Below, in pieces: positions 5,864 to 21,533 of a DNA stretch of 23,220 nt; position 1 is the stretch's first letter; the number at the start of each line of letters is the position of its first letter. Origin of the DNA: a virus; the IMG/VR virus record IMGVR_UViG_3300042914_001089, positions 1 to 23,220 of that record; one strand, 5' to 3'. Under the pieces are notes generated by a model. The model was given only the letters and a program-made list of their open reading frames with translations, made no database searches and was not told where the DNA came from. The translations under genes and the position numbers were made by a program.

Positions 5864-6090
5864 TTTTAATTATTCCGATAACGGCTGCTTTATTTGCTTT
5901 TCACTTTATCGATGTGCTTCGCATTCCAGAGCGTTGGCGTGTGCTATATCGCAAACCTTTTAACTGCAATCTTTGCTTATCTTTTTGGGTGGCGTTACTT
6001 TTATGGCTTGTGCCTCCTATCTTTGTCAAAGTATTATTCACAGGCTTTGCCGCTTCAATCTTATCAGTATGGGGAATAAAGAAATCATAA
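5860..6090 (+). CDS. Small membrane protein with FNCNLCLSFW motif, 76 aa
   Basis: The protein has an N-terminal hydrophobic helix (MILIIPITAALFAFHFI), a basic loop (RIPERWRVLYRKP), the motif FNCNLCLSFW (about 34-43), and one or two hydrophobic helices to the end. Small inner-membrane proteins with a 'PFxCxxCLxFW' motif at the start of a helix occur in Bacteroidetes and their phages; their function is unknown to me. Its ATG overlaps the stop of the sigma-like gene (ATGA at 5860-5863), and its end overlaps the next gene by 22 bases. Being next to glycan enzymes, it might serve surface modification or superinfection exclusion, which is speculation. Confidence 0.65.
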   Translation: MILIIPITAALFAFHFIDVLRIPERWRVLYRKPFNCNLCLSFWVALLLWLVPPIFVKVLFTGFAASILSVWGIKKS

Positions 6091-6578
6091 TCCATCCTAC
6101 GGCTATTATCTACGATAACGTGATTATTGAGGATGGCGTTTATATTGGTGCTTATTGTGTGATAGGTGCTGAACCTGAATGGAAAGGAAAGGAAGGCGAA
6201 GGCAAAGGAGTTATAATAAGAGCAGGAACAAGGCTTACAGGATTTGTTACAATAGATAGTGGGGCTGAAGGTGTTACATACATCGGAGAGAATTGTTACA
6301 TCATGAAGCATACGTACATTGCGCATGATGTTACTTTAAAAGATAACGTAACCATATCGGCAGGCGTTAGTATTGGTGGATTGTGTACAATAGGACAAAA
6401 TACCAATATCGGAATGAATGCGTCTATTCATCAAAAGGTAAAGATACCTGAAGGTTGCATGATAGGTATGGGCGCTGTGGTTACAAAAAAGACTGAATTA
6501 AAAGAGAATTGTAAATATGCGGGTGTACCTGCAAAATTCATAGGTTACAATGACAGGCATAATATTTCTAAATTATAA
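6069..6578 (+). CDS. LpxA-like hexapeptide-repeat acyltransferase, 169 aa
   Basis: The ATG at 6069 gives MGNKEIIIHPTAIIYDNVII, closely resembling the start of LpxA-type acyltransferases (I.HPTAIv...v.I). Hexapeptide ([LIV]-G-x4) repeats follow through about residue 145: YIGAYCVIG, YIGENCYI, VSIGGLCTIGQNTNIGMNASI, CMIGMGAVVTK, closing with YAGVPAKFIG, the usual end of left-handed beta-helix transferases. HTYIAHD (His81, His86-Asp87) lies where LpxA has its catalytic histidine. It probably transfers an acyl or acetyl group to a sugar or sugar nucleotide in the cytosol; the substrate cannot be told. At 169 residues it is shorter than LpxA, and closer to small sugar O/N-acyltransferases. It overlaps the GT2 gene by 29 bases, so the two probably act together. 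A longer frame opens at 5973, but only the ATG start fits the family. Confidence 0.75.
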   Translation: MGNKEIIIHPTAIIYDNVIIEDGVYIGAYCVIGAEPEWKGKEGEGKGVIIRAGTRLTGFVTIDSGAEGVTYIGENCYIMKHTYIAHDVTLKDNVTISAGVSIGGLCTIGQNTNIGMNASIHQKVKIPEGCMIGMGAVVTKKTELKENCKYAGVPAKFIGYNDRHNISKL

Positions 6579-7221
6579 GCGTAAAGACTATTCAATAAAC
6601 GTATTGCACTCTATTAAGCAAATAGGATGCGAATATGAATTATTGGAGGTTGAAATGTTTGGCATTGCAGCGGCTATCAATTACGGCTTTAAATATTTCT
6701 TTGAAGAGAAAGGATATGATAAAGTTGCTATATGTGCAAACGATATTATGATGCCTGTAGGGTGGCTAGATGCTATGGTTACGGCGGCGGATGCGATACC
6801 AGAAACGGGTACGAGTGCTATCTATTGCGTGGAGCATTTGCCTGCAGTTCAAAACATAAACGGCGTTAATGTGCATCCGGCGTGGGGTGTTTTCGGGTGT
6901 AGCTTAGTAACTAAAAAAGCATTCAATACAATAGGATACTTTAATACTGATCAAGACCCATACGGAATGCAGGATAGTGATTATTCTTATAGGTTACATA
7001 AAGCAGGCTTTTTGAATTATTACATACATGGCATGAATTCTACCCATGTAGGGGCAGACGTTGGCAATGGCTCTGAATATCGTAAAATGAAAGATGAAGG
7101 TTTAAATAAGGCTGGGGCGATTTATGGTAAGTGGTGCAGGATTTATGATAGCGGAAAACTTTACCTACCTTATGAGCAGGAGAATTACATAATCGAAATG
7201 AATCAGTATTATGAGCAATAA
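6550..7221 (+). CDS. GT2-like glycosyltransferase, 223 aa
   Basis: The protein opens with MTGIIFLNYKRKDYSINVLH, the first strand and helix of a GT-A fold. It has VAICANDIMMP (59-69) at the position of the metal/nucleotide-binding DxD region (Asn64-Asp65 here), FGCSLVTKKAF (115-125), and the acceptor-side motif GMQDSDYSYRLHKAGF (139-154), like the ED.D...R...G motif of family 2. It should move a sugar from a nucleotide donor to an unknown acceptor in the cytosol. It lacks membrane segments and is somewhat shorter than many GT2 enzymes, though all core motifs seem present. Its neighbour upstream is the acyltransferase, overlapping by 29 bases, which suggests one sugar-modification unit within the phage. 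Confidence 0.75.
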   Translation: MTGIIFLNYKRKDYSINVLHSIKQIGCEYELLEVEMFGIAAAINYGFKYFFEEKGYDKVAICANDIMMPVGWLDAMVTAADAIPETGTSAIYCVEHLPAVQNINGVNVHPAWGVFGCSLVTKKAFNTIGYFNTDQDPYGMQDSDYSYRLHKAGFLNYYIHGMNSTHVGADVGNGSEYRKMKDEGLNKAGAIYGKWCRIYDSGKLYLPYEQENYIIEMNQYYEQ

Positions 7222-7611: not shown

Positions 7612-8131
7612 ACCCAACCCGAAAAACCCTCGCACGATAAAAGACGAGCGGTTTGAGAAATTAAAGAAAAGCATTCAGGACTTCCCGGATATGCTTAACA
7701 AACGACCTTTGGTTTGCTTTACCGATACCGATGGCAAGTTTGTTGTATTAGGTGGTAATATGCGACTCAAAGCGGCAAAGGATTTAGGATTGAAAGAATT
7801 ACCCATAATCCTTGCAGATGAATGGACTGAGGAACAAAAAGCTGAGTTTCTTATCAAAGATAACGTCGGCTTTGGTGAGTGGGATTGGAACGAATTGAAT
7901 ACCGATTGGGATACGGAACAGCTTAATGAATGGGGGTTGGAGGTGCCCAAGTTTGCTGAGCCTGTAGATTATTCAGATAAAAACGAAGAGATTGATATTG
8001 ATGCTTTAGATACTGAAATGATAATTAAATTAAAATATACTGAAGATGAATATCAATTAGTAAGGGAGCAACTGAGTAAAATAGCTGCAACACCTGAACA
8101 GGCAGTATGGAAATTATTAGGCAATGAGTAA
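7586..8131 (+). CDS. ParB-like (ParB/Srx fold) DNA-associated protein, 181 aa
   Basis: The N-terminal 100 residues form a ParB/sulfiredoxin-type domain: a first strand with IKPNPKNPRTI (8-18), the helix FEKLKKSIQDF, the strand PLVCF, and the signature VVLGGNMRLKAAKDLG (53-68), equivalent to the GERR box of ParB. The family binds and hydrolyses CTP in chromosomal ParB, but phage members are often companions of DNA methyltransferases. The middle (WDWNELNTDWDTEQLNEWG) and the C-terminus (about 137-181) are typical of these phage versions. It overlaps the methyltransferase gene by 8 bases, which supports a joint role in DNA modification. No partition partner (ParA) is visible, so a plasmid-partition role is less likely. 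Confidence 0.78.
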   Translation: MIVATNKIKPNPKNPRTIKDERFEKLKKSIQDFPDMLNKRPLVCFTDTDGKFVVLGGNMRLKAAKDLGLKELPIILADEWTEEQKAEFLIKDNVGFGEWDWNELNTDWDTEQLNEWGLEVPKFAEPVDYSDKNEEIDIDALDTEMIIKLKYTEDEYQLVREQLSKIAATPEQAVWKLLGNE

Positions 8132-9146
8132 ACATAGATTTAATTATAAGTGGTATTTAAAAGATGGCTATCCTAAAAGTCACGGGTTAAAAGTGTTCGG
8201 TACTTTTATTTGTGGAGGTGGCTCAACTATGGGTTATAAGTTAGCAGGGTTTGAACATTTAGGTGGTGTTGAAATAGACCCTGAAGTTGCAGATGTTTAT
8301 AAAACTAATCACAATCCGAAATACTTATTTGTTGAAGATATAAGAGGTTTTGCAGATAGGAAAGAATTTCCTGAAGATTTATACAACCTTGATATTTTAG
8401 ATGGTTCGCCTCCTTGCTCTTCATTTAGTATGGCAGGCAATAGAGAAAAGGATTGGGGCAAAACAAAAGTATTTAGGGAGGGGCAAGCAGAACAGCGATT
8501 AGATGATTTATTTTTTGATTACATTCGACTTGCAAAAAAATTACAGCCAAAAGTTGTTATAGCTGAAAATGTAAAAGGATTAATTCAAGGCAATGCAAAG
8601 GCATACGTTCACAGGATTAAAAAAGAATTTGAAGCTGCAGGATATAAAGTGCAATTATTTTTGCTTAATGCTGCAAGTATGGGAGTGCCTCAAAAAAGAG
8701 AAAGAGTATTTTTTATATGTCAAAGAAATGATTTAAATTTTCCTAAGTTAGAATTGAAGTTTAATGAGCAAGCAATACCTTTTGGAGTAATAGATGAAGG
8801 AATAAATATTGAAAGAGAAAATTTATCAAAAAGCTATACGGAAAAATGGTATAATACAAAAGAAGGAGAAAATCCAAAAGCAAAAAGTGGAAATACCTTT
8901 GGATTTATGTATAAAACATCTTTAATAGATGTATGTTCAACAATTACAAGCGGTGGCACAAACGCTTATTTTTTGCAACCAAAAGAATTAACTAAAAATG
9001 AATATTGTCAAATTGGAACATACCCACTTGATTACAACTTTAAAAAGATTGAGCCAAAATATTTAATCGGTATGTCAGTGCCTCCTGTAATGACTGCACA
9101 GGTAGCAACTGAAATTTATAATCAATGGTTAAAAACAGGGAAATAA
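8124..9146 (+). CDS. C5-cytosine DNA methyltransferase, 340 aa
   Basis: All main m5C-methyltransferase motifs are present in order: motif I FGTFICGGGSTMGYKLAGF (25-43) for SAM binding; IDPE (51-54); motif IV GSPPCSSFS (94-102) with catalytic Cys98; motif VI AENVKG (147-152); motif VIII GVPQKRERVFF (187-197); and motif X near the end, YLIGMSVPPVMTAQVATEI. The target-recognition region between motifs VIII and X is only about 100 residues, so the specificity domain is compact. It should methylate cytosine in a short motif of phage DNA, protecting it from host restriction or marking it for packaging. No restriction endonuclease gene lies next to it, so it looks like an orphan enzyme. The gene is more A/T-rich in codon choice than the terminase genes after it, suggesting a separate origin. 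Confidence 0.9.
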   Translation: MSKHRFNYKWYLKDGYPKSHGLKVFGTFICGGGSTMGYKLAGFEHLGGVEIDPEVADVYKTNHNPKYLFVEDIRGFADRKEFPEDLYNLDILDGSPPCSSFSMAGNREKDWGKTKVFREGQAEQRLDDLFFDYIRLAKKLQPKVVIAENVKGLIQGNAKAYVHRIKKEFEAAGYKVQLFLLNAASMGVPQKRERVFFICQRNDLNFPKLELKFNEQAIPFGVIDEGINIERENLSKSYTEKWYNTKEGENPKAKSGNTFGFMYKTSLIDVCSTITSGGTNAYFLQPKELTKNEYCQIGTYPLDYNFKKIEPKYLIGMSVPPVMTAQVATEIYNQWLKTGK

Positions 9147-9151: not shown

Positions 9152-9547
9152 ATGCCAACACCTCCAGAACATAGTCAATTTAAGCCCGGCGAAAGCGGAA
9201 ACCCGAACGGGCGACCTCGCAAGATTGTATCTTTGCTGAAGGATCAGGGGTATAAACTTTCAGAGATTAATGATACTTTGATGGCTTTGCTGTCGATGGA
9301 TATGAATGAGCTGAAGGATGCTTTTGAAAATCCGAAAGCAACGGTATTAGAGAAGGCGGTTGCGGGTGCGATTAGGAAGAGCATCGAGAAGGGCAGCCTT
9401 TATAACATTGAAACGATAATCACGAGGGCAATGGGTAAGCCGAAGGAGCAGACGGAGCATTCGGGCGGGCAAACGATTAAAGTAGTTTATGAGCGAAATA
9501 CAGGTCAGATTACCGGAGCTGCATCGGAATCAACAGAAAATTATTAA
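9152..9547 (+). CDS. Putative terminase small subunit (DUF5681-type)
   Basis: The product begins MPTPPEHSQFKPGESGNPNG and continues RPRKI; the 'FKPGxSGNPNGRP' element is the signature of DUF5681, frequently encoded just before phage large terminase genes. The rest is helical (LLKDQGYKLSEINDTLMALL and a VLEKAVAGAIRKSIEKG segment), suitable for a DNA-recognition subunit. I start at ATG 9152, five bases after the methyltransferase stop, because the family begins near the PG..GNPNGRP element; an in-frame ATG at 9125 would add nine residues and overlap the methyltransferase. The gene overlaps the large subunit by 59 bases in another frame. The small subunit would pick the packaging site and load the motor. 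Confidence 0.7.
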   Translation: MPTPPEHSQFKPGESGNPNGRPRKIVSLLKDQGYKLSEINDTLMALLSMDMNELKDAFENPKATVLEKAVAGAIRKSIEKGSLYNIETIITRAMGKPKEQTEHSGGQTIKVVYERNTGQITGAASESTENY

Positions 9548-10661
9548 CGAAGCTAAGCGCTTCAACGTGCTCAATTGCGGCCGTAGATTTGGCAAGTCGA
9601 AGTTGAGCGTTAATCTTTTGGTTGAGGGCGCATTAGAGGGCTATCCTGTAGGGTACTTTGCCCCGACATATAAACTATTAGAGGGTACGTTTAAAGAGTG
9701 CTATAACGCCTTAGAACAGGTAATAAAGCGAAAACATGATCAGCAGTTCATTGAATTGGTTACGGGCGGGATTATTGAGTTTTGGAGTTTGGACAACCCT
9801 AACGCTGGCAGGTCGAGAAAGTACAAGGTGGCTATTGTGGACGAGGCGGCATTTGTGAAAGACCTTTGGGAAGCGTGGACTCAATCGATACGACCGACGC
9901 TTACCGACTTAAAGGGCGGGGCGTGGTTTATGAGTACGCCAAAAGGGAAGAACGATTTTTACAAGTTGTGGATGCGTGGGCAGACGGGCGAAGAGGGATG
10001 GGCAAGCTGGCAGATGCCGACAAGCACAAACCCTTTTATTGATATTTCAGAGATTTATTCAGCTGAAAAGGATTTGCCGGCTTTGGCATTTAAGCAGGAA
10101 TACCTTGCGGAGTTTAACGATAACGTGGCGAATCCCTTTGGCTTTCAGTTCATCAAGCAATGCACGATGCCTATGAGTACGGAGCCTGCGGTTTGTTACG
10201 GTGTGGATTTGGCGAAGTCATTTGACTGGACGGTGATTATTGGATTAGATAGATTCGGGCAGGTAAGCTATTTAGAGCGCTTTCAAAAGGATTGGAATAT
10301 AACAAAGCAGATAGTAACGCAACTGCCAAAAGCACCGATTAAAGTAGATAGTACGGGCGTTGGCGACCCGATTGTTGAAGACCTGCAAAGGCAGCGGCCA
10401 AATGTATTTGGGTTTAAATATTCAGCAAGCTCAAAGCAGCAGTTAATGGAGGGTTTGCAATCAGCAATCCATCAAAGGAAGGTCGGCTTTCCTGAGGGTG
10501 TTATAACAAAGGAATTAGAAAGCTTTGAATATGAATACACTCGAACGGGTGTAAGGTTTAATGCGCCAACGGGTATGCATGATGATTGCGTGAATGCCTT
10601 AGCCTTAGCGTGGGCGCAATTTATGGAAAGGAAGCACGATGTAAAATATGTTTTTATATGA
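9489..10661 (+). CDS. terL: Terminase large subunit
   Basis: The 390-residue product contains the full packaging-motor set. Walker A is CGRRFGKS (30-37); Walker B is VAIVDEA (114-120) with Asp118 and Glu119; the coupling motif is STPKG (149-153). The C-terminal RNase H-like nuclease shows GVDLAKSFDWTVIIG with Asp240, KVDSTGVGD with Asp287, and MHDDCVNALALAWA with Asp365/Asp366. It powers ATP-driven DNA translocation into the procapsid through the portal and cuts the concatemer. At 390 residues it is short but complete. Its start lies inside the small-subunit gene, so the two are probably translationally coupled. The stop overlaps the next start (ATGA, 10658-10661). Confidence 0.92.
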   Translation: MSEIQVRLPELHRNQQKIINEAKRFNVLNCGRRFGKSKLSVNLLVEGALEGYPVGYFAPTYKLLEGTFKECYNALEQVIKRKHDQQFIELVTGGIIEFWSLDNPNAGRSRKYKVAIVDEAAFVKDLWEAWTQSIRPTLTDLKGGAWFMSTPKGKNDFYKLWMRGQTGEEGWASWQMPTSTNPFIDISEIYSAEKDLPALAFKQEYLAEFNDNVANPFGFQFIKQCTMPMSTEPAVCYGVDLAKSFDWTVIIGLDRFGQVSYLERFQKDWNITKQIVTQLPKAPIKVDSTGVGDPIVEDLQRQRPNVFGFKYSASSKQQLMEGLQSAIHQRKVGFPEGVITKELESFEYEYTRTGVRFNAPTGMHDDCVNALALAWAQFMERKHDVKYVFI

Positions 10662-11284
10662 CATGGAATGACTTAACGGTGGGGCAATATCAGAGGCTCT
10701 ACGGAATATTAAAGCAAACGGACAAAACGAATCTGGATATCCTTACTGAGATTATATCAGTATGTGAGGGGTATGCTATTGATGAAATAGACAGCTGGCC
10801 GTTTAGTAAGTTAATTGAAAAGGAAAAGGAATATAAGTTTTTGGAGTCATTGGACTTTGATAAGACGGCAAAGAAGTATATCAATATCGGTAAAATACGA
10901 TATAAGTTTGTCCATAAAATTCAGGACATACCCGCTGCAAGGTATATCGAGGCAAAGCACTTTTTAAAAGAGGACTTTATAGATAATCTTCACAGCTTAA
11001 TGGCTTCATGTGTTATGCCTATGCGCAAAACGTGGCGTGGGTGGGTTGAGGAGAAGTACGATGCGAAGCTGCACAGCCATTATGCGAACGATTTAAGGCA
11101 GGCGAAGTTTGTGGAGGTTTATAATTGCACGCTTTTTTTTTGTCGATTATACGCGGAATTGATAAAAGGTTTGGAGCCTTATTTGACAAAGGAGCTGGCG
11201 AAGATAACGACGGCGGACAAGATAGCGGAAGTTCAAACAGCTTTGCGGTTAATTACGGATGGATTTACAGTACCGAGCAGGTAG
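10658..11284 (+). CDS. Putative tail assembly chaperone, frame-0 product, 208 aa
   Basis: The ATG at 10658 overlaps the terminase stop and gives MTWNDLTVGQYQRLYGILKQ. The protein is mostly helical and soluble, with conserved-looking stretches such as IPAARYIEAKHFL and NLHSLMASCVMPM. I recognise it only as a protein commonly found between terminase and tail genes in Bacteroidetes phages. A run of nine T residues lies in frame at 11133-11141, and an overlapping -1 frame without a credible start continues to 11421, the arrangement of lambda G/GT-type tail assembly chaperones that make a short form and a frameshifted long form. That assignment is inferred from architecture. A longer in-frame reading from 10586 adds a leader inside the terminase gene and is less likely. 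Confidence 0.6.
   Translation: MTWNDLTVGQYQRLYGILKQTDKTNLDILTEIISVCEGYAIDEIDSWPFSKLIEKEKEYKFLESLDFDKTAKKYINIGKIRYKFVHKIQDIPAARYIEAKHFLKEDFIDNLHSLMASCVMPMRKTWRGWVEEKYDAKLHSHYANDLRQAKFVEVYNCTLFFCRLYAELIKGLEPYLTKELAKITTADKIAEVQTALRLITDGFTVPSR
11134..11140 (+). other. Candidate -1 programmed frameshift heptamer (T TTT TTT)
   Basis: Within CTT TTT TTT TGT of frame 0 the heptamer T TTT TTT fits the X XXY YYZ slip rule exactly. A slip moves the ribosome into the -1 frame, open to 11421. No strong downstream hairpin or pseudoknot was obvious by eye. Confidence 0.5.
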
Positions 11285-11421
11285 CTGAATTGGAGCGGAT
11301 TAGTTTGGATGCAGCCTATGATATGAATATAATGCAATACCTTAGCGATTTGGTTTACATAAAGGAAAAGCAAAAGAATGAGCGGCGAATGATGGAAGAG
11401 ATTAAAAGAAATTACAAATGA
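11140..11421 (+). CDS. -1 frame extension of the tail assembly chaperone (T-like domain)
   Basis: This frame carries 93 codons after the slip and would give a fusion of about 254 residues (161 + 93). It starts with a short LSIIRGIDKRFGALFDKG stretch, passes through a Gly/Ser/Asp-rich linker (GEDNDGGQDSGSSNS), and ends in a compact helical domain, YGWIYSTEQVAELERISLDA followed by AYDMNIMQYLSDLVYIKEK. A domain of this look after a flexible linker is what a 'T' part of G/T chaperones would be. The only start codons are a TTG at 11125 within the upstream gene and ATGs deep in the C-terminal domain, so independent translation looks unlikely. The sequence could also reflect a homopolymer miscount, although both frames look protein-like. 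Confidence 0.5.
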   Translation: MSIIRGIDKRFGALFDKGAGEDNDGGQDSGSSNSFAVNYGWIYSTEQVAELERISLDAAYDMNIMQYLSDLVYIKEKQKNERRMMEEIKRNYK

Positions 11422-11446
11422 GGTGGTTTTTATAGCAAGCATACAT

Positions 11447-11481
11447 CCCCGGCTTATTCTTAGGCGGGGGTTTTGTTTTTT
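11447..11481 (+). terminator. Rho-independent terminator after the chaperone gene
   Basis: CCCCG (11447-11451) pairs with CGGGG (11465-11469) around a 13-base loop that can pair further (GGC...), followed by a T-rich run to 11481. It sits 25 bases after the -1 frame stop. Confidence 0.65.
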
Positions 11482-11482
11482 A

Positions 11483-11499
11483 GGTATTTATTAAAAGAT
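11483..11499 (+). promoter_or_regulatory. GGTATTTAT leader element, copy 1
   Basis: GGTATTTAT (11483-11491) directly follows the terminator U-tract and ends eight bases before the ATG at 11500. The 37 bases ending at this ATG match those ending at the ATG at 22131 at about 31 positions. It may be a late promoter or a shared translation leader. Confidence 0.4.
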
Positions 11500-12153
11500 A
11501 TGCCAACAATAGCACAAGCACAAGCGAAATTAGGGGGGAGTACATTTACCGGAACCGGTATATCTAAAGGCGTGTTTATGCCTAAAGAGGATATTCCTTT
11601 AGCGTCTCAGATGGTAGCTGAATACGTGAAAGAATTTGAGAGCATGGTTGCAACAGAATTGGATCGGGTGGGGCGTGTGGATACTGGCGACCTTGCAAGC
11701 TCGATAAGTTATGAAACGACTGAAACGAGGAACGGGATAATAATTGAGGTCTTTGTAAATGATTATTACAAATTTGTTGATAAAGGTGTTAGGGGTGTGG
11801 GGCGTGGTAATATTAACACTACTTCGCCGTATAAATTTAGAACTTTAAACCCATCGAAAAGCCATCAAAATGCAATTCGCAAATGGTTAAAAAATAATGA
11901 TGTAAAGTCAAGGGCAACGGATGTAAAGAAATACGGGGCGGTAGGTAGGGAGCAAAGGCAGCCTACGGATACGACATTAGCTTTCCTTGTTGCTCGGAAA
12001 ATTAAAAGGGTGGGTTTACCTTACACGGGCTTTTGGGAGAAAAGCATTGATGCCGTGTTCAAAGACTTTGATGTGAAGATGTCGCAGGCTTTGGGTATTG
12101 ATGTAAGGGTTAATTTAGAAAATATGGTAAAAGAGATTAAAAAGAAAAAATAA
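11500..12153 (+). CDS. HK97 gp10-like tail completion/neck protein, 217 aa
   Basis: The ATG at 11500 gives MPTIAQAQAKLGGSTFTGTG. The central part has VGRVDTGDLASSISY (57-71) and VNDYYKFVDKGVRGVG (86-101). 'vdTGdLa.SI' followed by a strand and then 'Y..fvdkGv.G' is the pattern of the HK97-gp10-like/tail-completion group, and related proteins are common in Bacteroidetes phages before the tail proteins. It probably sits at the head-tail junction or the tail end and helps tail joining. The rest, with KRVGLPYTGFWEKSI, suggests a helical C-terminal segment. An earlier in-frame start at 11473 would lie in the terminator and is rejected. The gene is the first after the terminator and ends one base into the next start. 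Confidence 0.65.
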   Translation: MPTIAQAQAKLGGSTFTGTGISKGVFMPKEDIPLASQMVAEYVKEFESMVATELDRVGRVDTGDLASSISYETTETRNGIIIEVFVNDYYKFVDKGVRGVGRGNINTTSPYKFRTLNPSKSHQNAIRKWLKNNDVKSRATDVKKYGAVGREQRQPTDTTLAFLVARKIKRVGLPYTGFWEKSIDAVFKDFDVKMSQALGIDVRVNLENMVKEIKKKK

Positions 12154-13271
12154 TGGCAATTACTATTAAGAGCGCTCCACAAGCGTCTGGTTATGTATCC
12201 GCAAATGAAGATGTTTGGCACGTGGCAGATAGCACGAATAAAGCGGTTATAGGGTTTAAGTATCTTTTTGATATTTACAAGGGCGCTGAATTACTTACAA
12301 GGGTAACAAACAGCCCGTATGGCGATGATGGGTACGGCGTTATAAATGTCGGCAATATTGTGAGGTCGGCGGTGGCGGTGGATACGCTGGCGGATATAGA
12401 TATGCAAAGCACTTATAATACATATTCGGTGTTAAATGCAGGCGCTGACTTTTGGTGGGGTGAGTACGATGTAAGGTATGGTGAGGTGTGTGGAACGACA
12501 ACAACAACAAACGATGCTTCAGGAACTTATCGGGTTTATAATACATACAACAGGCACCCGCTTCACAAGGCAGGGGCGGCGCTAAGTAGCGGTACGGTGT
12601 ATTTGACAAACCGACCGAATGAAAGTTATTTTTATGATGGTGAGCCTGTGATATTAAGTTTTAACGGAAAACGATTAGCGGCCGGCAATGAGTTTGATAT
12701 ATGTATTGCGGGCGGCGAAAATACGGTTACGGCTGTGGATGGCTTTCACTATTTCAGTGTAAATGGATTGGGTGGCGATGCCGATGTAGAGATTGAAACG
12801 AGTGGCACCGTGCTGGCTACAAAGAAACTAAAAAAACGATGTTCGAAATATACACCTTACACATTGATATTTTTGAACACCTACGGGGCTTGGGATAGTT
12901 TTACTTTTGTCAATGGCAATGTATTGACTGACAATCAAAAAAAGAAATTCGAGCAAAGCGAATGGAAGTTGAGCGGCTTTAATATGGTCAATAAAACGGG
13001 AAAGGTATTATATGAAGGGATGCGAACGTATGGCAGCGAGTTTAATACGAAGATGAAGCTTACAACGGATCTTTTAAATAGTGATGAATATATTTGGCTG
13101 TTCGAGTTAATCGTTTCTCCTTTGGTGTATTTATGGGATAAAACGGCAAACCTTTTCCATCCTGTGCAGATTACAGATAGCAATTATGAGATAAAGAACA
13201 GCTTGCAGAATAAGACGGAGACGCTCGATATTAATATAGATGTGTATAAACAAAATACTCAGTACCGATGA
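12153..13271 (+). CDS. Phage tail/baseplate structural protein, 372 aa
   Basis: The product begins MAITIKSAPQASGYVSANED and is predicted all-beta, with a run like FKYLFDIYKGAELLTR (about 31-46), VGNIVRSAV near 67-75, then YTLIFLNTYGAWDSFTFVNG and LTTDLLNSDEYIWLFELIVS followed by PLVYL. This series of elements is a pattern I associate with a tail protein of Bacteroidetes siphoviruses that sits directly before the large hub-like protein and tape measure; I read it as a distal-tail or baseplate protein. No enzyme motif is visible. It starts at an overlapping TAATG (12151-12155) and ends in an ATGA overlap with the next gene, so the three tail genes are co-translated. Confidence 0.6.
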   Translation: MAITIKSAPQASGYVSANEDVWHVADSTNKAVIGFKYLFDIYKGAELLTRVTNSPYGDDGYGVINVGNIVRSAVAVDTLADIDMQSTYNTYSVLNAGADFWWGEYDVRYGEVCGTTTTTNDASGTYRVYNTYNRHPLHKAGAALSSGTVYLTNRPNESYFYDGEPVILSFNGKRLAAGNEFDICIAGGENTVTAVDGFHYFSVNGLGGDADVEIETSGTVLATKKLKKRCSKYTPYTLIFLNTYGAWDSFTFVNGNVLTDNQKKKFEQSEWKLSGFNMVNKTGKVLYEGMRTYGSEFNTKMKLTTDLLNSDEYIWLFELIVSPLVYLWDKTANLFHPVQITDSNYEIKNSLQNKTETLDINIDVYKQNTQYR

Positions 13272-15595
13272 TTTACGAACTATTTTTGGAGGGGCAATTA
13301 GTTGATATCCGGCAGGATTTAGGGATGCAGCTTAGTTACAATATTGATGACGTTAATAAGTACGGCAGCAGGGATACATCATTCAGCAAAACGATTGTTT
13401 TACCGGGTACGGCAAAGAACAATAAGATACTGGGTTTTGTGGGGGAGTTAGGGAGCAATAACCCATATTTGCCCGGCAATGAGAATATAGGCGTTAATTT
13501 CAACGTGGCGCAAACCACTAAGGCAGAACTAAGGGCGAACGGTCTTTTGCTTTTAAAGGGCGTTTTTAGGCTTACAGGGATTGTAAAGGAGCGGGACATG
13601 ATAGAGTATGAGGGCAATCTATTTGGTGAGCTTGGCGGGTTTATTGCAGCCATTGGGGCAGATAAGTTAGAGGATTTAGATTTCAGCGAATATAATCACA
13701 CGTACACACGGGATAACATTGTAAAAAGTTGGGGCGATACTGTTAAAACTAAGTTGATAACATTTACATCTTCATTAAAAAGAATAAGATACTCAGGTAT
13801 AAATGATTCATCTTTATATGTAGCTGGTCAAACAATAACTATATCAGGGTCTGTTAGTAATAACGGAGTTTATACAATAGTATCTGCAAGTTATAGTCTT
13901 TTTACTGGCAATACTATTATTGTTCAGGAATCTATTGTAAATGAAACGGTAACTTGTCAAATAACTATTCCGGGTACAGGCGGATACTATTACCCATTGA
14001 TTGATTATGGCACCTACTCAACACCTGAGAAAAACCCCGGCAGGGTAAAAGTTGATTATGATTACAGGACATTCCGCCCGGCGTTATTTGTGAAAGAGTA
14101 TATTGATAAGATGTTTGAGCCGAGCGGTTACACTTATGAAAGCAGTTTTTTTGATAGTGCATTTTTTAAGAAGTTAATAGTACCTAATAATTCAAAAGAA
14201 TTAAAATCATTATTTACAGACTTGTTAGATGTTTCAAGAAGTAGATATGATTTTGTATTTAATACCGAAACTCAAACTGCTTTAGATTTTAACATTGAAA
14301 ATTTAAAAAGAAGTTTTAATGATGATGGCAATCCAAATTATACATACACTGGATCTCAATCTAAATTAAAATTTAATTATAAATTTTCCGGACGTGTAAG
14401 ATGGTATTCGGTATCTTTTAGAGCTAACAGATATCTTTATATAAGATTATTTAAAAATTCAACTTTAATAAAACAATATTCTTTTGATAGCAATAGCGGG
14501 TTATTTTTTAATTATAGTATTGAGGATTCAATTGAAATTGACTTTAATACAAATGATACTTTTTATTTTGATGTTTATTATAGGAGCATTGATATTGGAG
14601 ATTATTATTTAGATTTTAATTATTTACGTGTTAATTCAACTAATCCAATACTTACTGATGCTATATTAAACGAAAATATTTTAATTAAATATAGCATCCC
14701 TCGTAACATCCTGCAAAAAGATTTCTTTGTATGGATTATGAAAATGTTTAATTTGTACATCACTGAAGATAAGGTAAAGGAAAAACATTTATTAATTGAG
14801 CCGTATGTAGATTATTACGACTTATCGGAGTCAAAGGATTGGACTTATAAAGTTGCAAGGGATAAGGCGTGGAATATTAAACCTATGGGAATGTTGATTG
14901 GAAGATTATTTGAGTATAAGTACAAAGATGATAACGACTTTTACAATGAAGGCTACAAAAAGAAATACAACATTCCGTATGGTTCACGCTTAGAAGATAC
15001 ATCTTTCCAATTTGCAAAGGATAAGCAAACGATTGAAATAGGATTTTCGCCGTCCGTGTTAATCCAATATCAGGGGACTGATAAGGTAGTAACTGCCATT
15101 TACAAAAAGTCGTCGGGTAATGCAGTGGATCAGGAAGAGCGGATGGATAGCAATATCAGGATAATGATGGCAAAGAAAATGACGGGGGTTACAAGTTGGT
15201 ATATCCGCAATAACGATGCCGATCCTGCAAGTGCTAACTTAGGCGCTGCCTTAACGGTTTACGGATATGCTGGTCATTTTGACGACCCTGTGAACCCTAC
15301 AAAGGATATAAATTTCGGGGCGGCTTCTGAGATTTATTTTGACCCTGTTACATATCCATCAACTAATTTATTCAATGATTACTGGAGCGGATACATTGCT
15401 GAGATAGCGGACAAAGATAGCAAGCTATTGACGTGTCATGTTTACCTTACTGATTTAGATATAGCGCAACTTGATTTCAGCAAACCTGTATTTATTGATG
15501 GGGTGTTATGGCGGATAAATAAGGTAATGGATTACGATGCAACGAGCGGCGAATTAACAAAAGTTGAACTATTAAAAGTTATAAATAATGGCTAA
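13268..15595 (+). CDS. Large tail/baseplate hub-like protein, 775 aa
   Basis: The N-terminal 150 residues (MIYELFLEGQLVDIRQDLGM, then SFSKTIVLPGTAKNNK) and the C-terminal half (IPRNILQKDFFVWIMKMFNL, LLIEPYVDYYDLS, FEYKYKDDNDFYNEGYKKK) match what I know as a conserved Bacteroidetes-phage tail protein, probably at the tail tip or baseplate. It lies immediately before the tape measure gene, fitting that place. Two stretches stand out as much more A/T-rich than the rest: about residues 160-235, containing a small beta domain (VAGQTITISGSVSNNGVYTI and a GNTIIVQESIVNETV ending), and about 297-478, a beta-rich module. Both look like inserted modules in a mosaic virion protein. Host recognition or fibre-like roles for them are possible but not shown. 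Confidence 0.6.
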   Translation: MIYELFLEGQLVDIRQDLGMQLSYNIDDVNKYGSRDTSFSKTIVLPGTAKNNKILGFVGELGSNNPYLPGNENIGVNFNVAQTTKAELRANGLLLLKGVFRLTGIVKERDMIEYEGNLFGELGGFIAAIGADKLEDLDFSEYNHTYTRDNIVKSWGDTVKTKLITFTSSLKRIRYSGINDSSLYVAGQTITISGSVSNNGVYTIVSASYSLFTGNTIIVQESIVNETVTCQITIPGTGGYYYPLIDYGTYSTPEKNPGRVKVDYDYRTFRPALFVKEYIDKMFEPSGYTYESSFFDSAFFKKLIVPNNSKELKSLFTDLLDVSRSRYDFVFNTETQTALDFNIENLKRSFNDDGNPNYTYTGSQSKLKFNYKFSGRVRWYSVSFRANRYLYIRLFKNSTLIKQYSFDSNSGLFFNYSIEDSIEIDFNTNDTFYFDVYYRSIDIGDYYLDFNYLRVNSTNPILTDAILNENILIKYSIPRNILQKDFFVWIMKMFNLYITEDKVKEKHLLIEPYVDYYDLSESKDWTYKVARDKAWNIKPMGMLIGRLFEYKYKDDNDFYNEGYKKKYNIPYGSRLEDTSFQFAKDKQTIEIGFSPSVLIQYQGTDKVVTAIYKKSSGNAVDQEERMDSNIRIMMAKKMTGVTSWYIRNNDADPASANLGAALTVYGYAGHFDDPVNPTKDINFGAASEIYFDPVTYPSTNLFNDYWSGYIAEIADKDSKLLTCHVYLTDLDIAQLDFSKPVFIDGVLWRINKVMDYDATSGELTKVELLKVINNG

Positions 15596-17585
15596 GCAGG
15601 AAGTAGGTTTAAAGATAGATGTTGATGTATCGTCGGTGGGCAATATGAAGCAGCAACTAAGGGCCGCAACGAATGAGCTGGTGGCAATGAATGAGAAATT
15701 TGGCAGCACGTCAAAGGAAGCCGTAGCAGCGGCTCAAAGGGTGGCGGGGCTTAAGGATGCTATTGGCGATGCTAAGGCGCTGGCAGAAACATTCAATCCG
15801 GATAAGAAGTTTGTAGCGTTGGGTGGGGCGGTGCAGGGTGCAGCAGCGGGCTTTTCCGCTTTGCAGGGTGCGATGGGTTTATTTGGAGCTGAGAGTAAGG
15901 AAGTAGAGCAAATGCTTTTAAAGGTACAATCCGCGATGGCATTGCAGCAAGGGATTAGTGGAATAGCAAATGCGATGGATTCCTTTAAACTATTAGCAGG
16001 TCAAATAGCCACTTCAAGTTTTGCATTAAAAGCAAATGCAGTAGCTACAAATTTGGCATCTGGCGCAATGAAGCTGTTTGGTGTATCGGTTGCAACAACA
16101 TCGAATGCTTTTAGGGTTTTAAAAGGTGCAATTATTGCTACCGGTATCGGTGCGTTAATTGTAATTGTAGGCGAACTTGTTAATGTTTTAATGGATGTAG
16201 CTGATTCATCTGATGAAGCTGCAGCGGCTCAAAAGCGATTAGAGAAAGCTCAAAAAGATGCTGCCGATGCTATTGAGTTGCAAAACAAAATGCTTGAGGG
16301 TCAAATTGACCTTGCTAAAAGAAATACAGATTTAGCTGTTAATCGTGCAAAGGCCACAGGAGCGAGTGAGGAAGAGATAACAAAATTAACACGCGATGGG
16401 ATATTAAAACGCCAAAAACTACTTAAAGATGATTTAGAACAAAGGGGAACTAATGATGCACAATATTTTGAAAAACTAAAAGAATTTAGTAAAGTAAATA
16501 ATGAGCTTGAAGATTTTGATTTAAATAATCAAATTAAAAGAAGGGAGAAATTAGATGCAGATAGAGAAAAACGTATTGCAAAAGATTCTGAAAAAGCAAA
16601 AAAGAAAAAAGAGGAAGTCGAAGCCGAAAAAAAGCGCCTTGCTGAATTGCAAAAAAATACAGAAGAGTTTTTAAAACAAAATGCAAAACGTACAAAAGAA
16701 TTACAAGACCAATTAAGGCTTTCAGCAATAACAGATGAAAAGGAGAAAGCAAAGGTTGAGAATCAAATTAAATTTCAAAATGAATTAGATGCTGAAACGG
16801 AAAGATTTAAGGCGGGAGAATTAAGACTTGAGCAATATTTATTAAACCTTGCATTGATTAGGCAAAGATATGCTAATGATCAAAAGGCAAAAGATGAAGA
16901 AGATAAAAATGCTGAATTAACAAAACAATCCGAAAAGTTATTAAAGGATGCCGAAAATGATGCACTTTCTTTTGAGGAAAGATTAGCAAAAATACAGGAG
17001 CGTCAGGCGTTAGAAAATCAAATTGTTTTTGCATCTGAGGAAGATCGTAAAAAGTTTATTGCTGAAAATGAAAAGGCAATTACGGATATTAAACTTTTAG
17101 AAGGTCAGGTAAGAACGGCTAATGCACAATTTGCGGCTGATCAGCTTTCTGCCATTGCTGCCATTGCGGGTCAGGATACAGCGGCGGGTAAGGCTTTGAG
17201 TGTGGCGGCTGCAACTATATCTACATATTTATCTGCACAAAAAGCGTATGAATCGCAATTTAAACCTGTTGCGATTGTTGATAGTCCGATACGTGGTGCT
17301 ATTGCAGCGGGTGTAGCCATTGCTACGGGTATTGCTAATGTTCGTAAAATATTATCGGTTCAGGTACCCGGCGGGCGTGGTGGTGGCGGTGGCGCTGGCA
17401 TTTCAACAGCCGCACCTGTTGCTCCTCAACTTTCCCCACAGGTTACAGCCACACAGGTAAATACGGCGGCGGTCAATCAATTAGGCAATCAGGCAACAAG
17501 GGCGTATGTTTTGAATAGCGACATTCAGAACAACGATCAAAGAAATGCGTATATAAATAGAAATGCATCAATAGGAAATCCTTAA
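15588..17585 (+). CDS. Tail tape measure protein, 665 aa
   Basis: The protein has the usual tape measure layout: an Ala-rich helical N-terminus (LRAATNELVAMNEKFGSTSK), a hydrophobic segment at about 182-205 (IIATGIGALIVIVGELVNVL), a long charged coiled coil (about 210-500), a second Ala-rich stretch near 545-590, a Gly-rich patch GGRGGGGGAG, and a Bacteroidetes-type tail with TRAYVLNSDIQNNDQRNAYI. The protein sets tail length and may leave with DNA during ejection. Using the common figure of about 0.15 nm per residue, 665 residues imply a tail near 100 nm, a modest siphovirus tail. The coiled-coil part is more A/T-rich than the ends. It overlaps the hub-like gene by 8 bases. Confidence 0.85.
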   Translation: MAKQEVGLKIDVDVSSVGNMKQQLRAATNELVAMNEKFGSTSKEAVAAAQRVAGLKDAIGDAKALAETFNPDKKFVALGGAVQGAAAGFSALQGAMGLFGAESKEVEQMLLKVQSAMALQQGISGIANAMDSFKLLAGQIATSSFALKANAVATNLASGAMKLFGVSVATTSNAFRVLKGAIIATGIGALIVIVGELVNVLMDVADSSDEAAAAQKRLEKAQKDAADAIELQNKMLEGQIDLAKRNTDLAVNRAKATGASEEEITKLTRDGILKRQKLLKDDLEQRGTNDAQYFEKLKEFSKVNNELEDFDLNNQIKRREKLDADREKRIAKDSEKAKKKKEEVEAEKKRLAELQKNTEEFLKQNAKRTKELQDQLRLSAITDEKEKAKVENQIKFQNELDAETERFKAGELRLEQYLLNLALIRQRYANDQKAKDEEDKNAELTKQSEKLLKDAENDALSFEERLAKIQERQALENQIVFASEEDRKKFIAENEKAITDIKLLEGQVRTANAQFAADQLSAIAAIAGQDTAAGKALSVAAATISTYLSAQKAYESQFKPVAIVDSPIRGAIAAGVAIATGIANVRKILSVQVPGGRGGGGGAGISTAAPVAPQLSPQVTATQVNTAAVNQLGNQATRAYVLNSDIQNNDQRNAYINRNASIGNP

Positions 17586-17595
17586 ATTTACATAA

Positions 17596-18519
17596 ATGGA
17601 AAAGATACTACCAGTATATAAACTGACAATAAAAGAAGATATTGAGAGCGGCGTTGAGGTCGATGCCGTTGCCTTAGTTGATGTGCCTGCTATTGGTGTT
17701 GGCTTTTACGCTTTTAACGAACAGCAATTTGAAAGTTATAGCGATTATCCTAAGCAAGCGAGTGAAAACGCAAAGGTAGCTTTGAGATGGGCTGAAGAGA
17801 ATGGGTGGGGTGATTGCGGTACGGCGGTCGGAAAAAAAAGAGCTAACGATTTGGCAGACGGTAGACCTTTGTCGAGGGATACGATTGCACGTATGGCAGC
17901 ATTTGAAAGGCATAGGCAAAACTCAGATAAAGAGCTTGGCGATGGCTGTGGGCGGCTTATGTGGTTAGCGTGGGGCGGTGATGCGGGTGTTGAATGGGCG
18001 CAAAGAAAACTTGAGCAAATAGATAGGGAAAAGATGCAAGCCTTTGCAGTTGTAAATGAAGAGGAGCGAATTGTAGTTGGTCCCGCAATGATACCCGATA
18101 AAAAGATATTTAGGCGTGATGAAGATGGCACAGAATACGAGGTGTTTTTTACAAAAGAAACAATCCGTATCATTGCCGAAAAGTTTTTTAAAAAGGGATT
18201 CCAGACAAACGGTAACGAAATGCACAATAGCGCAAAGCCTGTGGATTTGGTTTTCTTTCAGTCATGGATAGCAGATGAAAGTAAAGGCATTCCTAAAATG
18301 AAGCAGTTTGAAAGCCTGCCCGATGGCACGTGGTTTTTAGGCGCAAAGATTAACGCTGAAGAATCATGGGCAAAGGTAAAGGATGGCACCTTTAAAGGAT
18401 TCAGCGTGGAGGGTATGTTTGATATGATGCCTATTAAAATGTCAATGAAGATGTCAGAGGAAGCGGCGGCAAAGTTAGTCGTTAATCAGTTAAAAGAACT
18501 TTTGCAAAATGTCAGCTAA
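17596..18519 (+). CDS. XkdF-like prohead protease with an inserted domain, 307 aa
   Basis: The start (MEKILPVYKLTIKEDIESGV followed by EVDAVALVDVPAIG) and the C-terminal half (VGPAMIPDKKIFRRDEDGTE, TKETIRIIAEKFFKK, NEMHN with His210, GTFKGFSVEGMF with Ser270) match the XkdF group, whose members are thought to be HK97/herpesvirus-like prohead proteases using His and Ser. Between them, residues 51-143 hold an extra domain (YPKQASENAKVALRWAEENG, WGDCGTAVGKKRANDL, SRDTIARMAAF, DGCGRLMWLAWGG, GVEWAQRKLEQID) that occurs in other phage proteins and whose role I do not know. The protease would trim the scaffold and capsid during head maturation. It lies before the scaffold and capsid genes, as expected, but a glycosyltransferase stands between. 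Confidence 0.75.
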   Translation: MEKILPVYKLTIKEDIESGVEVDAVALVDVPAIGVGFYAFNEQQFESYSDYPKQASENAKVALRWAEENGWGDCGTAVGKKRANDLADGRPLSRDTIARMAAFERHRQNSDKELGDGCGRLMWLAWGGDAGVEWAQRKLEQIDREKMQAFAVVNEEERIVVGPAMIPDKKIFRRDEDGTEYEVFFTKETIRIIAEKFFKKGFQTNGNEMHNSAKPVDLVFFQSWIADESKGIPKMKQFESLPDGTWFLGAKINAEESWAKVKDGTFKGFSVEGMFDMMPIKMSMKMSEEAAAKLVVNQLKELLQNVS

Positions 18520-18787
18520 TTTACAGGCGATACCATTAGGGCTTATAGGTGTAAAGCCTTATATTGAGTTTGTAGTTGAAAAGGGTTTTTCTGTTATGGA
18601 GCCTGACGATACTACATTGCAAGATGATGCTTTTTCGAGTGCGCCCTCGGTTTATATTGATGGGCTGCTATTGACTTATTTGGCGCTTAATAGCAGAAGG
18701 TATGTGAGTTATGACCCATCCACGAAAACAATAACTTTAAATAATGCAGGTGTAAATGAAGGTGAGGTCGTTCAAATATTTTTATAA
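18509..18787 (+). CDS. Small putative virion protein, 92 aa
   Basis: The product begins MSANLQAIPLGLIGVKPYIE and ends SYDPSTKTITLNNAGVNEGE followed by VVQIFL. The C-terminal beta stretch 'DPSTKTITLNNxGVNEGEVVQI' resembles small Bacteroidetes-phage proteins near capsid genes, possibly a head decoration or a short fibre-like piece; I cannot assign a function. It overlaps the protease gene by 11 bases and is followed 17 bases later by the glycosyltransferase. No signal peptide or membrane segment is visible. Confidence 0.6.
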   Translation: MSANLQAIPLGLIGVKPYIEFVVEKGFSVMEPDDTTLQDDAFSSAPSVYIDGLLLTYLALNSRRYVSYDPSTKTITLNNAGVNEGEVVQIFL

Positions 18788-18804
18788 TCAAACCAATCAA
18801 CAAA

Positions 18805-19800
18805 ATGAAAATCTTAGTTTTAACGCAATCCTTCAGCGGTTGTGGGTACCACAGGCTTATGCTTCCTGTTTCTTTAATGGCAAAGGATAAAGCACGAATA
18901 ACGGATGTTTTTCCTGAAGATTTTGACTACGACATTGTGAACATTAACAGGCTATGGCCTAAAGATGATTTAATAGAGCTTCGCAAAAAGCACGGGTTTA
19001 AATTAGTTGTCGATGTCGATGATTTTTGGATTTTAGATAATTGGCATTTGGACTTTGATACCTACAATCAACATAATGTCGATTCAAGAATAATAAAGCA
19101 CATACGGGAAGCGGACTTAGTTACCTGCACCCATGAGCGGTTGGCGGAAAGGGTTTACCCTCATAATAAAAATGTTGAGATATTACCGAATGCAATACCC
19201 TACGGCCAAAATCAATTTACAAGCGAACGCAATGACTCTGATTTGGTAAGGTTGTTTTGGGCGGGTGGCATTTCGCATGAGCAGGATTTGAAAATACTTA
19301 AGCCTGTAATGAAGCGGCTATTGAATAGCGATTTAAAAGATAAGGTGCAAACGGTTGTTGGCGGTTATTCAGATAGCAATATAACGGAGCAAACTATTTG
19401 GAAAAAGATGGTAAGCTACTTTACGGCGGATGCGCTTTTACCAAATATGGCTTATAGGGGTTTGCCTGTGTTTGAGTATTATCAAATGTATTTAGAGAGC
19501 GATATTAAACTAATCCCTTTGCGAAAAAGTACCTTCAACGGGTATAAATCAAACCTAAAGATATTAGAAGCGGCGGGAAAGGGTATACCTGTGATTGTTT
19601 CAAAGGTTAATCCTTATTTGGGCTTCCCTGAAGATGTAGTGTATTATGAGAACTGGGATAAAAATATTAGGGCGCTGGTTGAGGATAAGGATTTAAGAGA
19701 GGGCAAAGGCAAAGAACTTTTTGAATATTGCCATAAACATTTTAATTTTGATGCAATCAATACCCGCCGCAAAGATTTGTTTAAAAGTTTGTGTTCATAG
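18805..19800 (+). CDS. GT-B (GT4-like) glycosyltransferase, 331 aa
   Basis: The N-terminal half has MKILVLTQSFSGCGYHRLML, then KLVVDVDDFWILDNWH (66-81), with Asp-rich D.DD.W, and TCTHERLAERV followed by NVEILPNAI (123-131), the linker pattern of GT-B enzymes. The C-terminal half shows LFWAGGISHEQD (150-161) and FNGYKSNLKILEAAGKGIPV (244-263), carrying Glu255 and the 'LEaaa.G.PvI' motif of GT4 donor sites. It should transfer a sugar from a nucleotide-sugar donor in the cytosol; the acceptor is unknown. Its place between protease and scaffold/capsid genes suggests the acceptor might be a virion protein, but a host surface glycan is equally possible. A terminator follows at 19824. Confidence 0.8.
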   Translation: MKILVLTQSFSGCGYHRLMLPVSLMAKDKARITDVFPEDFDYDIVNINRLWPKDDLIELRKKHGFKLVVDVDDFWILDNWHLDFDTYNQHNVDSRIIKHIREADLVTCTHERLAERVYPHNKNVEILPNAIPYGQNQFTSERNDSDLVRLFWAGGISHEQDLKILKPVMKRLLNSDLKDKVQTVVGGYSDSNITEQTIWKKMVSYFTADALLPNMAYRGLPVFEYYQMYLESDIKLIPLRKSTFNGYKSNLKILEAAGKGIPVIVSKVNPYLGFPEDVVYYENWDKNIRALVEDKDLREGKGKELFEYCHKHFNFDAINTRRKDLFKSLCS

Positions 19801-19823
19801 TTTTTTAGTTTAGGTTAAGAAAT

Positions 19824-19852
19824 ACCCCTGCTTTTCTAAGTGGGGGTTTTTT
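19824..19852 (+). terminator. Rho-independent terminator after the glycosyltransferase
   Basis: ACCCCTGCTT (19824-19833) pairs with AAGTGGGGGT (19838-19847) at 8 of 10 positions around a TTCT loop, then runs into T-rich sequence. Confidence 0.65.
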
Positions 19853-19908
19853 ATATCTTATTAATTTTCAATTAGTTACAAAGCAAAATATCCATAAATA
19901 TATGTATT

Positions 19909-19921
19909 GGTATTTATTTGC
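19909..19921 (+). promoter_or_regulatory. GGTATTTAT leader element, copy 2
   Basis: GGTATTTAT (19909-19917) lies four bases before the ATG at 19922, downstream of the terminator at 19824. Only this core is shared with the other two copies; the spacer to the terminator is longer. Confidence 0.3.
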
Positions 19922-20506
19922 ATGAACCCAATCGAATTATTACAAAAAGTCAAAGCGCTGGTTTTCGAGGAAACCATGCCTGAGAAAAAAGATGAAAAGG
20001 AGATGGCTATGCCTGAACCTGAAAAAAAAGAATTTGGCGGTTATATGCTTAAAGATGGCACTGAGGTTTACATTGATAAATTAGAGGTTGGTGGTGTTGT
20101 TTCTGTTGAAAAGGAAACAATGGCGCCCGCTCCTGTTGGAGAACATGAGCTTGCAGATGGTACGGTAATCGTACTCGGAGAGGGTGGTGTTATCAGTGAA
20201 ATCAAACCCGCTGCAGCCGTTGAGCCTGAAGCACCAGCTGCTGAAGATTTAGGCAAAAAGTACGAAGAGAAATTCTCTGCTTATGATGCCAAATTTTCTG
20301 CATTGGAAAATGAAAACGCAAACCTTAAAGCAGCCTTCGCAAAGTCTGAAGATGCTATCAAAGGTCTGTTTGAGTTAGTTGAGAAACTTGTAAAAGAACC
20401 TACAACCGAACCCAGCGAGCCTGTGAAAAGCGGTTTTAAATTCGGTAAGCAAGTGGATAACAAAGAAGAAAAATTAAATAGTCTTATTAACCTTTTTAAA
20501 CAATAA
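19922..20506 (+). CDS. Scaffold-like protein, 194 aa
   Basis: The ATG at 19922 gives MNPIELLQKVKALVFEETMP, then a Glu/Lys/Pro-rich stretch. Two short beta units follow, at 43-62 (LKDGTEVYIDKLEVGGVVSV) and 78-95 (LADGTVIVLGEGGVISEI). A coiled coil occupies about 111-160 and the end is KFGKQVDNKEEKLNSLINLF. Acidic, coiled-coil proteins directly before the major capsid gene are the usual scaffolds of phage heads, and the tandem 'L.DGt.v....GgvvsV' units are typical of this type in Bacteroidetes phages. A scaffold role is inferred from position and shape. An in-frame non-ATG start at 19907 lies inside the leader and was not used. It precedes the capsid gene by six bases. Confidence 0.7.
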   Translation: MNPIELLQKVKALVFEETMPEKKDEKEMAMPEPEKKEFGGYMLKDGTEVYIDKLEVGGVVSVEKETMAPAPVGEHELADGTVIVLGEGGVISEIKPAAAVEPEAPAAEDLGKKYEEKFSAYDAKFSALENENANLKAAFAKSEDAIKGLFELVEKLVKEPTTEPSEPVKSGFKFGKQVDNKEEKLNSLINLFKQ

Positions 20507-20512
20507 ATAGAA

Positions 20513-21484
20513 ATGGCGTATAATGTAACGGGCTTAGCCGCATATACTAAGCAAAACGTAGATCTGCTGGTTAAGAACTCAGTTTTCGAAGCCCGCACAC
20601 AAAAGGAAATCCTTGCACTCGGTAACGTTCGTGTAGGTGTAAAATCTTCTGAAGCTATTGGCAGAATGGATACTGATGTATTCTTTCAAGATGATAGCGC
20701 TTGTGGATTTAACGCTTCAGGAACTACTACCTTCACTCAACGTTCTTTGACTGTCGGCAAAGTGAAAGTAAACGAAATCCTTTGCGATAAGGACTTAGAA
20801 CCTTATTACCTTCAACAATCTTTAAAGGCCGGGGGTGAGTACACTACTGCTGCATTCGCTGCTGACTACTCAGATCAAAAAGCGAAGAAAATAGCTGAAG
20901 CTCTTGAGGTTGCTTTGTGGACTGCTAACAGCACAGGAAGTGCAGGATCTAACGGGCTTTTAAACAAGTTTGATGGTATCAAAACTTTAGTAACTGCTGG
21001 TGGTGGATCGGTTGTAAATGCAAACACAACTGGATTCTACGGTACGCCTGCAACAGGGATAACTTCTACAACAATTGCAAAGAACGCAATCAATGCAGTT
21101 ATAAAAGGGTTGCCTGCTAAAATCAAAGGTAAAGATGATGTTCGTATATTCTGCGGATGGGATGTATTCGCTTATTTAATTCAGGCTTATGTGGATGCTA
21201 ACTTGTTCCACTTTGCACCTGATGCGAAGATTGATGATAACAGCGCTGCATTTACCGTTCCGGGTACATCTTATAAAGTAATCCCTGTTCACGGTTTAGA
21301 CGGCACTGATGACATCTACGCTTTCAGAATGTCTAACATCTTCTTAGGTACTGACTTACTCGATGAAGAAAATAAGTTCTGGATTCGTTGGTCTGAAGAT
21401 GATGAGAACATCAAATTCACAGCCCGCATGAAGATAGGTGTACAATTCGCCTTTGTTGATGAGATTGTGAAGTTCGAAGCCTAA
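20513..21484 (+). CDS. Major capsid protein (HK97 fold, probable)
   Basis: The 323-residue product starts MAYNVTGLAAYTKQNVDLLV and ends FTARMKIGVQFAFVDEIVKF. Its place after a scaffold-like gene, its length, and its order of segments (an N-terminal arm, a Cys-bearing CGFNASGTTTFTQRSLTV stretch with an E-loop-like region, a helical spine with AEALEVALWTANSTGS, and a beta C-terminus with TARMKIGVQFAF) fit an HK97-fold capsid. The motif KFTARMKIGV resembles the usual 'k.r.k.Gv.va' end of such proteins. This is a pattern call. A strong hairpin terminator follows at 21490, as often seen after an abundant structural gene. Confidence 0.8.
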   Translation: MAYNVTGLAAYTKQNVDLLVKNSVFEARTQKEILALGNVRVGVKSSEAIGRMDTDVFFQDDSACGFNASGTTTFTQRSLTVGKVKVNEILCDKDLEPYYLQQSLKAGGEYTTAAFAADYSDQKAKKIAEALEVALWTANSTGSAGSNGLLNKFDGIKTLVTAGGGSVVNANTTGFYGTPATGITSTTIAKNAINAVIKGLPAKIKGKDDVRIFCGWDVFAYLIQAYVDANLFHFAPDAKIDDNSAAFTVPGTSYKVIPVHGLDGTDDIYAFRMSNIFLGTDLLDEENKFWIRWSEDDENIKFTARMKIGVQFAFVDEIVKFEA

Positions 21485-21489
21485 TTTAT

Positions 21490-21513
21490 AAGGGGGTGTA
21501 AAAACCCCCTTTC
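21490..21513 (+). terminator. Terminator after the major capsid gene
   Basis: AAGGGGGT (21490-21497) pairs perfectly with ACCCCCTT (21504-21511) around a GTAAAA loop, followed by only a short T run. A second palindrome flanks it: TTTATAAG (21485-21492) with CTTATAAA (21515-21522). This could act as a terminator or as a 3'-end stabiliser. Confidence 0.7.
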
Positions 21514-21533
21514 ACTTATAAAAATTTAATACA

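Follow-up and report, generated by a model that had tools for sequence, protein, structure and literature searches.

A conserved run of nine T in putative tail assembly chaperone genes of Bacteroidota phages: a programmed frame change, possibly by RNA polymerase slippage

The window analysed here is the whole stretch of 23,220 nucleotides, positions 1-23,220 of the Bacteroidota phage record IMGVR_UViG_3300042914_001089. The features of the locus, all on the plus strand, begin with the gene for the terminase large subunit (9489..10661; phrog_2, E 8.9e-45), whose stop codon is overlapped (ATGA) by the start of a gene encoding in its 0 frame a product of 208 aa, the short form (10658..11284). Inside this gene lies a run of nine T (11133..11141), with the window codons CTT TTT TTT TGT and thus the phase xTT TTT TTT Tyy; it contains a T TTT TTT heptamer (11134..11140) in frame as X XXY YYZ, which would be the slip site if the frame change is ribosomal. 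The -1 frame extends over 93 codons and a stop (11140..11421, the stop at 11419-11421), reads LSIIRGIDKRF... after the slip, and comprises a helix, a Gly/Asp/Ser-rich linker and a helical domain (...YGWIYSTEQVAELERISLDAAYDMNIMQYLSDLVYIK...). Joined to the first 161 residues of the 0 frame, this extension gives a long form of 161 + 93 = 254 aa (10658..11421), and from 11141 to 11284 the tail of the short form and the -1 extension are encoded by the same nucleotides. An HK97-gp10-like tail/neck component (11512..12153; PF04883, 21.9 bits against a cut-off of 21.4) and the tail tape measure protein (15588..17585; phrog_1538, E 3.2e-8) are encoded downstream. The first-pass annotation had pointed to the nine T with their in-frame heptamer, a -1 frame open to 11421, a Gly/Ser/Asp-rich linker and helical domain past the slip, a fusion of about 254 residues and a gene lying directly behind the terminase, about 4 kb before the tape measure; sequence and translation bear out each of these points, the last distance being 4.2 kb. 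The run alone is unremarkable in an AT-rich window, which has one T9/A9 run where dinucleotide shuffles of both strands predict 5.2, so the case depends on conservation among relatives.

Queried with the short product, the -1 domain and alignments of each of them, IMG/VR yielded about 280 loci. Of the 260 related loci that bear a T run at the junction, 258 have exactly nine T in a single codon phase (xTT TTT TTT Tyy), while the flanks vary (G, C or A on the 5' side, A or G on the 3' side); these loci amount to 153 distinct sequences, which fall into 13 clusters at 50% identity. A scan for the DNA pattern gave at least 120 contigs with T9 in the conserved flank, family members making up 120/120 among the matches listed, against 10 contigs with T8 (0/10 from the family) and three with T10 (3/3 from the family). 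The two exceptions among the 260 are L248 and L221. In L248 a substitution at about position 3546 (GTT to GAT, a V to D codon) leaves T8, with the heptamer intact and the gene otherwise normal; in L285 (212-231) and L286 (3757-3776) a 5' V-to-F substitution makes T10 with the phase kept, so that FFF replaces VFF. Odd contigs were left out, namely L069 (a deletion across the site), L205 (a local duplication) and L221/L284 (T10, contig end). In L205 (2194-3012) the duplication copies the T9 site and joins the frames in a 273-codon ORF, which is possibly an assembly artefact.

The T9 site is also found outside metagenomes. A first scan of bacterial-genome contigs gave no locus and a second gave two, in the genomes of Mucilaginibacter pedocola and Chitinophaga cymbidii; two more searches, covering 400 and 395 Bacteroidota genomes, led to the same two genomes only. 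A tblastn search of INPHARED gave no isolate for the window protein or for several other members of the family, and the cultured Nonlabens phages P12024S and P12024L were reached via a fold search, not via sequence. Their genes 38+39 and 40+41, annotated in each phage as two hypothetical proteins, share with the window gene a homologous N part, the T9 in the same phase (at 23578), a position directly behind the terminase and the -1 domain. They differ from it in being very divergent (branch 4.9) and in having a shorter 0-frame tail (~25 aa); the homology is distant, with an HMM E of 2.4e-8 for the N part and only 0.018 for the -1 part (P12024L). Flavobacterium phage 6H (L282, KC959568) was considered and not counted, its match being a weak fold match with T6 and an immediate -1 stop. 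The protein concerned has 191 aa and is encoded at 10352-10927 on the minus strand; downstream of its gene, a helical stretch is encoded in a different frame, but not via a T9 run.

These data bear on the view that the run is a homopolymer sequencing error or the mark of a pseudogene, the true gene being one ORF. In its favour, related phages with a single ORF do exist, and T10 joins the frames in L221/L284, in L221 at the extreme end of the contig. Against it, T9 recurs in hundreds of independent metagenome contigs, in the two bacterial-genome loci and in cultured phages, and the overlap is selected in both frames, as shown below, beyond what an error could produce. An assembly artefact is ruled out for the family by the independent contigs and the cultured phages, and we give the error reading a negligible probability.

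It could also be supposed that the -1 ORF stands alone as a gene, having a start of its own and unfused to the upstream product. A TTG at 11125 opens a program-made ORF of 98 aa, and P12024S_39 (L281, JQ823122, 23663-23830) is annotated as a gene of its own with 55 aa; the latter corresponds to the 3' part of the -1 extension of P12024S_38, and P12024L_40/41 are arranged likewise. The first-pass annotation had seen no credible start in the -1 frame of the window, and the relatives agree: a conserved start codon is absent, and several have none at all from the preceding -1 stop to about 60 nt past the run. Moreover, conservation in the -1 frame starts at the T run, and both parts are encoded in one ORF in 13 relatives. 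We consider a separate gene very improbable.

The comparison with related phages proposed at the outset showed that the -1 domain is conserved along with the run, with identity down to ~30% (FFLS..D..F..LF...F...YGWIY...VAE.E.I.L..AY.LP..QFLNDL.YLK). Between paired relatives, third-position differences in the -1 frame amount to 0.253 per codon past the 0-frame stop and 0.129 inside the overlap, a ratio of overlap to downstream of 0.51 (bootstrap 95% 0.42-0.60). Since each third position of a -1 codon falls on a second position in the 0 frame, the tail of the short form must be constrained too. In all 153 sequences the 0 frame is open after the slip for 46 codons or more, and synonymous reshuffling of the -1 codons in the 13 cluster representatives rarely keeps it open (combined p 7.5e-7). 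A helical tail is common to members in the short-form alignment, and the model of the window short form (pLDDT 86) ends with a long helix and a second helix. The substitution patterns indicate that both frames of the overlap are under purifying selection. From the translations, the slip is predicted to swap alternative C-termini, a helical tail of ~47 residues and the extension of 93 residues, behind common residues 1-161.

The 13 run-less loci encode both parts in one ORF. In a maximum-likelihood tree, rooted by midpoint only, they form two separate groups inside T9 lineages, and well-supported branches force at least two changes; on this tree, T9 has been lost twice independently. The former 0 frame of these relatives is open over 0-69 codons (median 3) and is no longer kept open (p 4e-5). 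In the model of one natural fusion (L217, pLDDT 81), helices and beta structure make up the N-terminal part; a long helix then crosses the junction, followed by a disordered linker (173-185) and, at the C-terminus, a helical domain. The long protein thus appears to be the indispensable form of the two. Slippery heptamers near the junction are sporadic in the one-ORF relatives, and on that account another slip route in them is not argued. The first-pass annotation had held that run-less relatives with joined frames would make the case an artefact or a normal gene; such relatives exist, but the tree makes them derived losses, so that they confirm the fused protein and do not refute the slip. Taken from the comparative data, a programmed frame change giving two products from one gene is almost certain. 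As a separate observation, a conserved gene of ~120 aa, by eye unrelated to the short form, lies directly before the one-ORF chaperone gene in one slip-less lineage (L209 3642-4004, L212 3610-4005, L220 3648-4010).

We propose with good confidence that the gene product is a tail assembly chaperone pair, as suggested by gene order, by sub-threshold matches to Phage_TAC_7 and by the short/long G/GT layout. PF10109 (Phage_TAC_7), which represents tail assembly chaperones E, 41 or 14, matches the N-terminal stretch of relatives at 15.8 and 22 bits, under the 25-bit cut-off, and of 18 members compared with its profile, three match with E values up to 0.1. The window protein itself had nothing above cut-off in PHROGs and Pfam, and PF10109 did not match it either; a search for a solved relative in the PDB by profile, Foldseek and VIA-align found none, the best Z of 4.1 over 46 residues not being meaningful. 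A fold search of BFVD returned weak rows for annotated chaperones. With respect to gene order, the chaperone gene lies behind the terminase gene in most loci; the tape measure ORF is directly downstream of it in L209, L212 and L220 and just upstream of it in L200, the Mucilaginibacter locus, while in the window the two genes are 4.2 kb apart and not adjacent. It is conceivable that the frame change is real and the protein is some other factor, for instance one associated with the terminase or the neck, as the usual position behind the terminase and the absence of curated families above cut-off would allow. The TAC_7-like N-terminal stretch, the short/long architecture and the two other arrangements in which the gene adjoins the tape measure gene speak against such a factor, which we regard as unlikely.

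The order of the structural genes in the window (9489-23220) is itself unusual, running from terminase, chaperone and gp10-like genes through two large tail genes to the tape measure, with a scaffold-like gene, a capsid-like gene and the portal further downstream. In L209-L212, the gp10 and large tail genes precede the chaperone gene. Cargo-like genes were noticed by eye in or near the structural module of the window (5973-7221, 8124-9146 and 18805-19800), of the hexapeptide-repeat acyltransferase-like, glycosyltransferase-like (two) and DNA cytosine methyltransferase-like kinds.

With regard to how the two products would arise, we suppose that translation begins at one start and that most products pass the T9 in the 0 frame and end as the 208-aa short form, whereas a fraction would pass at the run into the -1 frame, giving the 254-aa long form. 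RNA polymerase could bring this about by adding one U on the T9 (U10), ordinary translation of the altered message then giving the same 254-aa protein; the ribosomal and transcriptional routes predict an identical product. By analogy with lambda G/GT, the common part may form a coat around the tape measure protein and the extension may bring in the tail tube protein, with the short:long ratio presumably set by the slip.

The first-pass annotation had read the site as a candidate programmed -1 frameshift. The frame change is supported but need not be ribosomal; slippage of the polymerase fits at least as well, a judgement that follows from the T9 itself, from the missing stimulators and from the way in which these genomes shun runs of nine or more. 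Folding of 24 representatives, pseudoknots being outside the model, gave no stimulatory 3' RNA structure (mean z +0.21 and +0.25) and no conserved RNA element at the site, and no anti-SD element was found upstream, where the anti-SD energy was no better than in controls. The first T of the run, which lies outside the heptamer, is invariant in T9 lineages, whereas 3 of the 13 one-ORF relatives have a residue with a T-middle codon at that position (p 8e-7). Elsewhere in the family genomes, A/T runs are observed at 0.47 of expectation at length 8, 0.11 at length 9 and 0 above; Baranov 2005 took such avoidance as the mark of slippage-prone 9A/9T (PMC1088944).

Ribosomal -1 programmed frameshifting at T TTT TTT, as in lambda G/GT, with T9 over T7 incidental to the flanking codons, is a substantial possibility that we nonetheless place below an even chance. 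A perfect in-frame heptamer is present in every run-bearing member, ribosomal frameshifting is known in tail chaperones of the lambda G/GT type (PMC5009743), and a rate of 6-7% was measured for an HK97-like cluster (PMC3711429); L248 keeps the heptamer with T8 only. On the other side, the downstream structure and the anti-SD signal are both absent, U_UUU_UUU is described as shifting less readily in E. coli than A_AAA_AAG does (PMC5009743), T9 lineages always keep an extra 5' T that the heptamer does not require, and nine is the length at the threshold of avoidance. Transcriptional slippage has its own difficulties, since the run contains a perfect -1 heptamer in frame and L248 has a normal gene, as ribosomal slipping would allow; moreover, the protein itself might call for V, L or I at the first T, and long runs may be avoided on account of replication slippage. 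From the comparison of sequences, we rank transcriptional slippage somewhat above ribosomal frameshifting. The whole proposal, of two tail chaperones with the long form made via RNA polymerase slippage on T9, stands in our estimate at an even balance.

Two-product tail chaperones made by frameshifting are textbook knowledge. The system described here resembles lambda gpG/gpGT, along with its HK97-like and P2 E/E' counterparts, in that one gene of the phage structural module gives two products by a -1 change, the long form having an extra C-terminal domain (PMC5009743). It differs from lambda in that T9 takes the place of the lambda slip site, ~46-85 dual-coding codons with both frames constrained follow the slip, the gene usually lies right behind the terminase, no stimulator was found, and G or T was not matched by sequence. 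The G/GT layout proposed in the first-pass annotation therefore stands as regards the programmed -1 change and the long form; the position of the slip departs from it, in that ~47 codons of the short gene still follow. The run of nine recalls the bacterial 9A/9T slippage genes (A9 in Thermus dnaX, IS elements and, for T3SS, Shigella mxiE), in which several frames are obtained from one gene, an accessory signal is unneeded and runs of nine are avoided genome-wide (PMC1088944); these cited cases, unlike the family here, are host genes and insertion elements.

In the literature searched, which took in few subscription journals, we found neither a published account of a T9 chaperone family nor a description of a tail chaperone using transcriptional slippage. 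What is new here is a fixed T9 for which no stimulators were found, together with a long overlap that codes in both frames and gives alternative C-termini, and two losses of the slip in nature. The annotation can be corrected as well, these genes having been recorded as a short hypothetical protein with or without a spurious small gene (P12024S_39), and the chaperone missed. It may well be, the arguments being evenly weighted, that tailed phages of Bacteroidota, in a widespread clade, rely on RNA polymerase slippage on T9 to set their chaperone ratio, two lineages having the long form only. The T8 variant in L248, where the heptamer is kept and the T9 is not, is a natural test case of polymerase versus ribosome, and the family tests whether RNA polymerase can replace the ribosome in a frame change. 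Comparison within the family also offers a clean test of whether both chaperone forms are needed by phages, and in what ratio.
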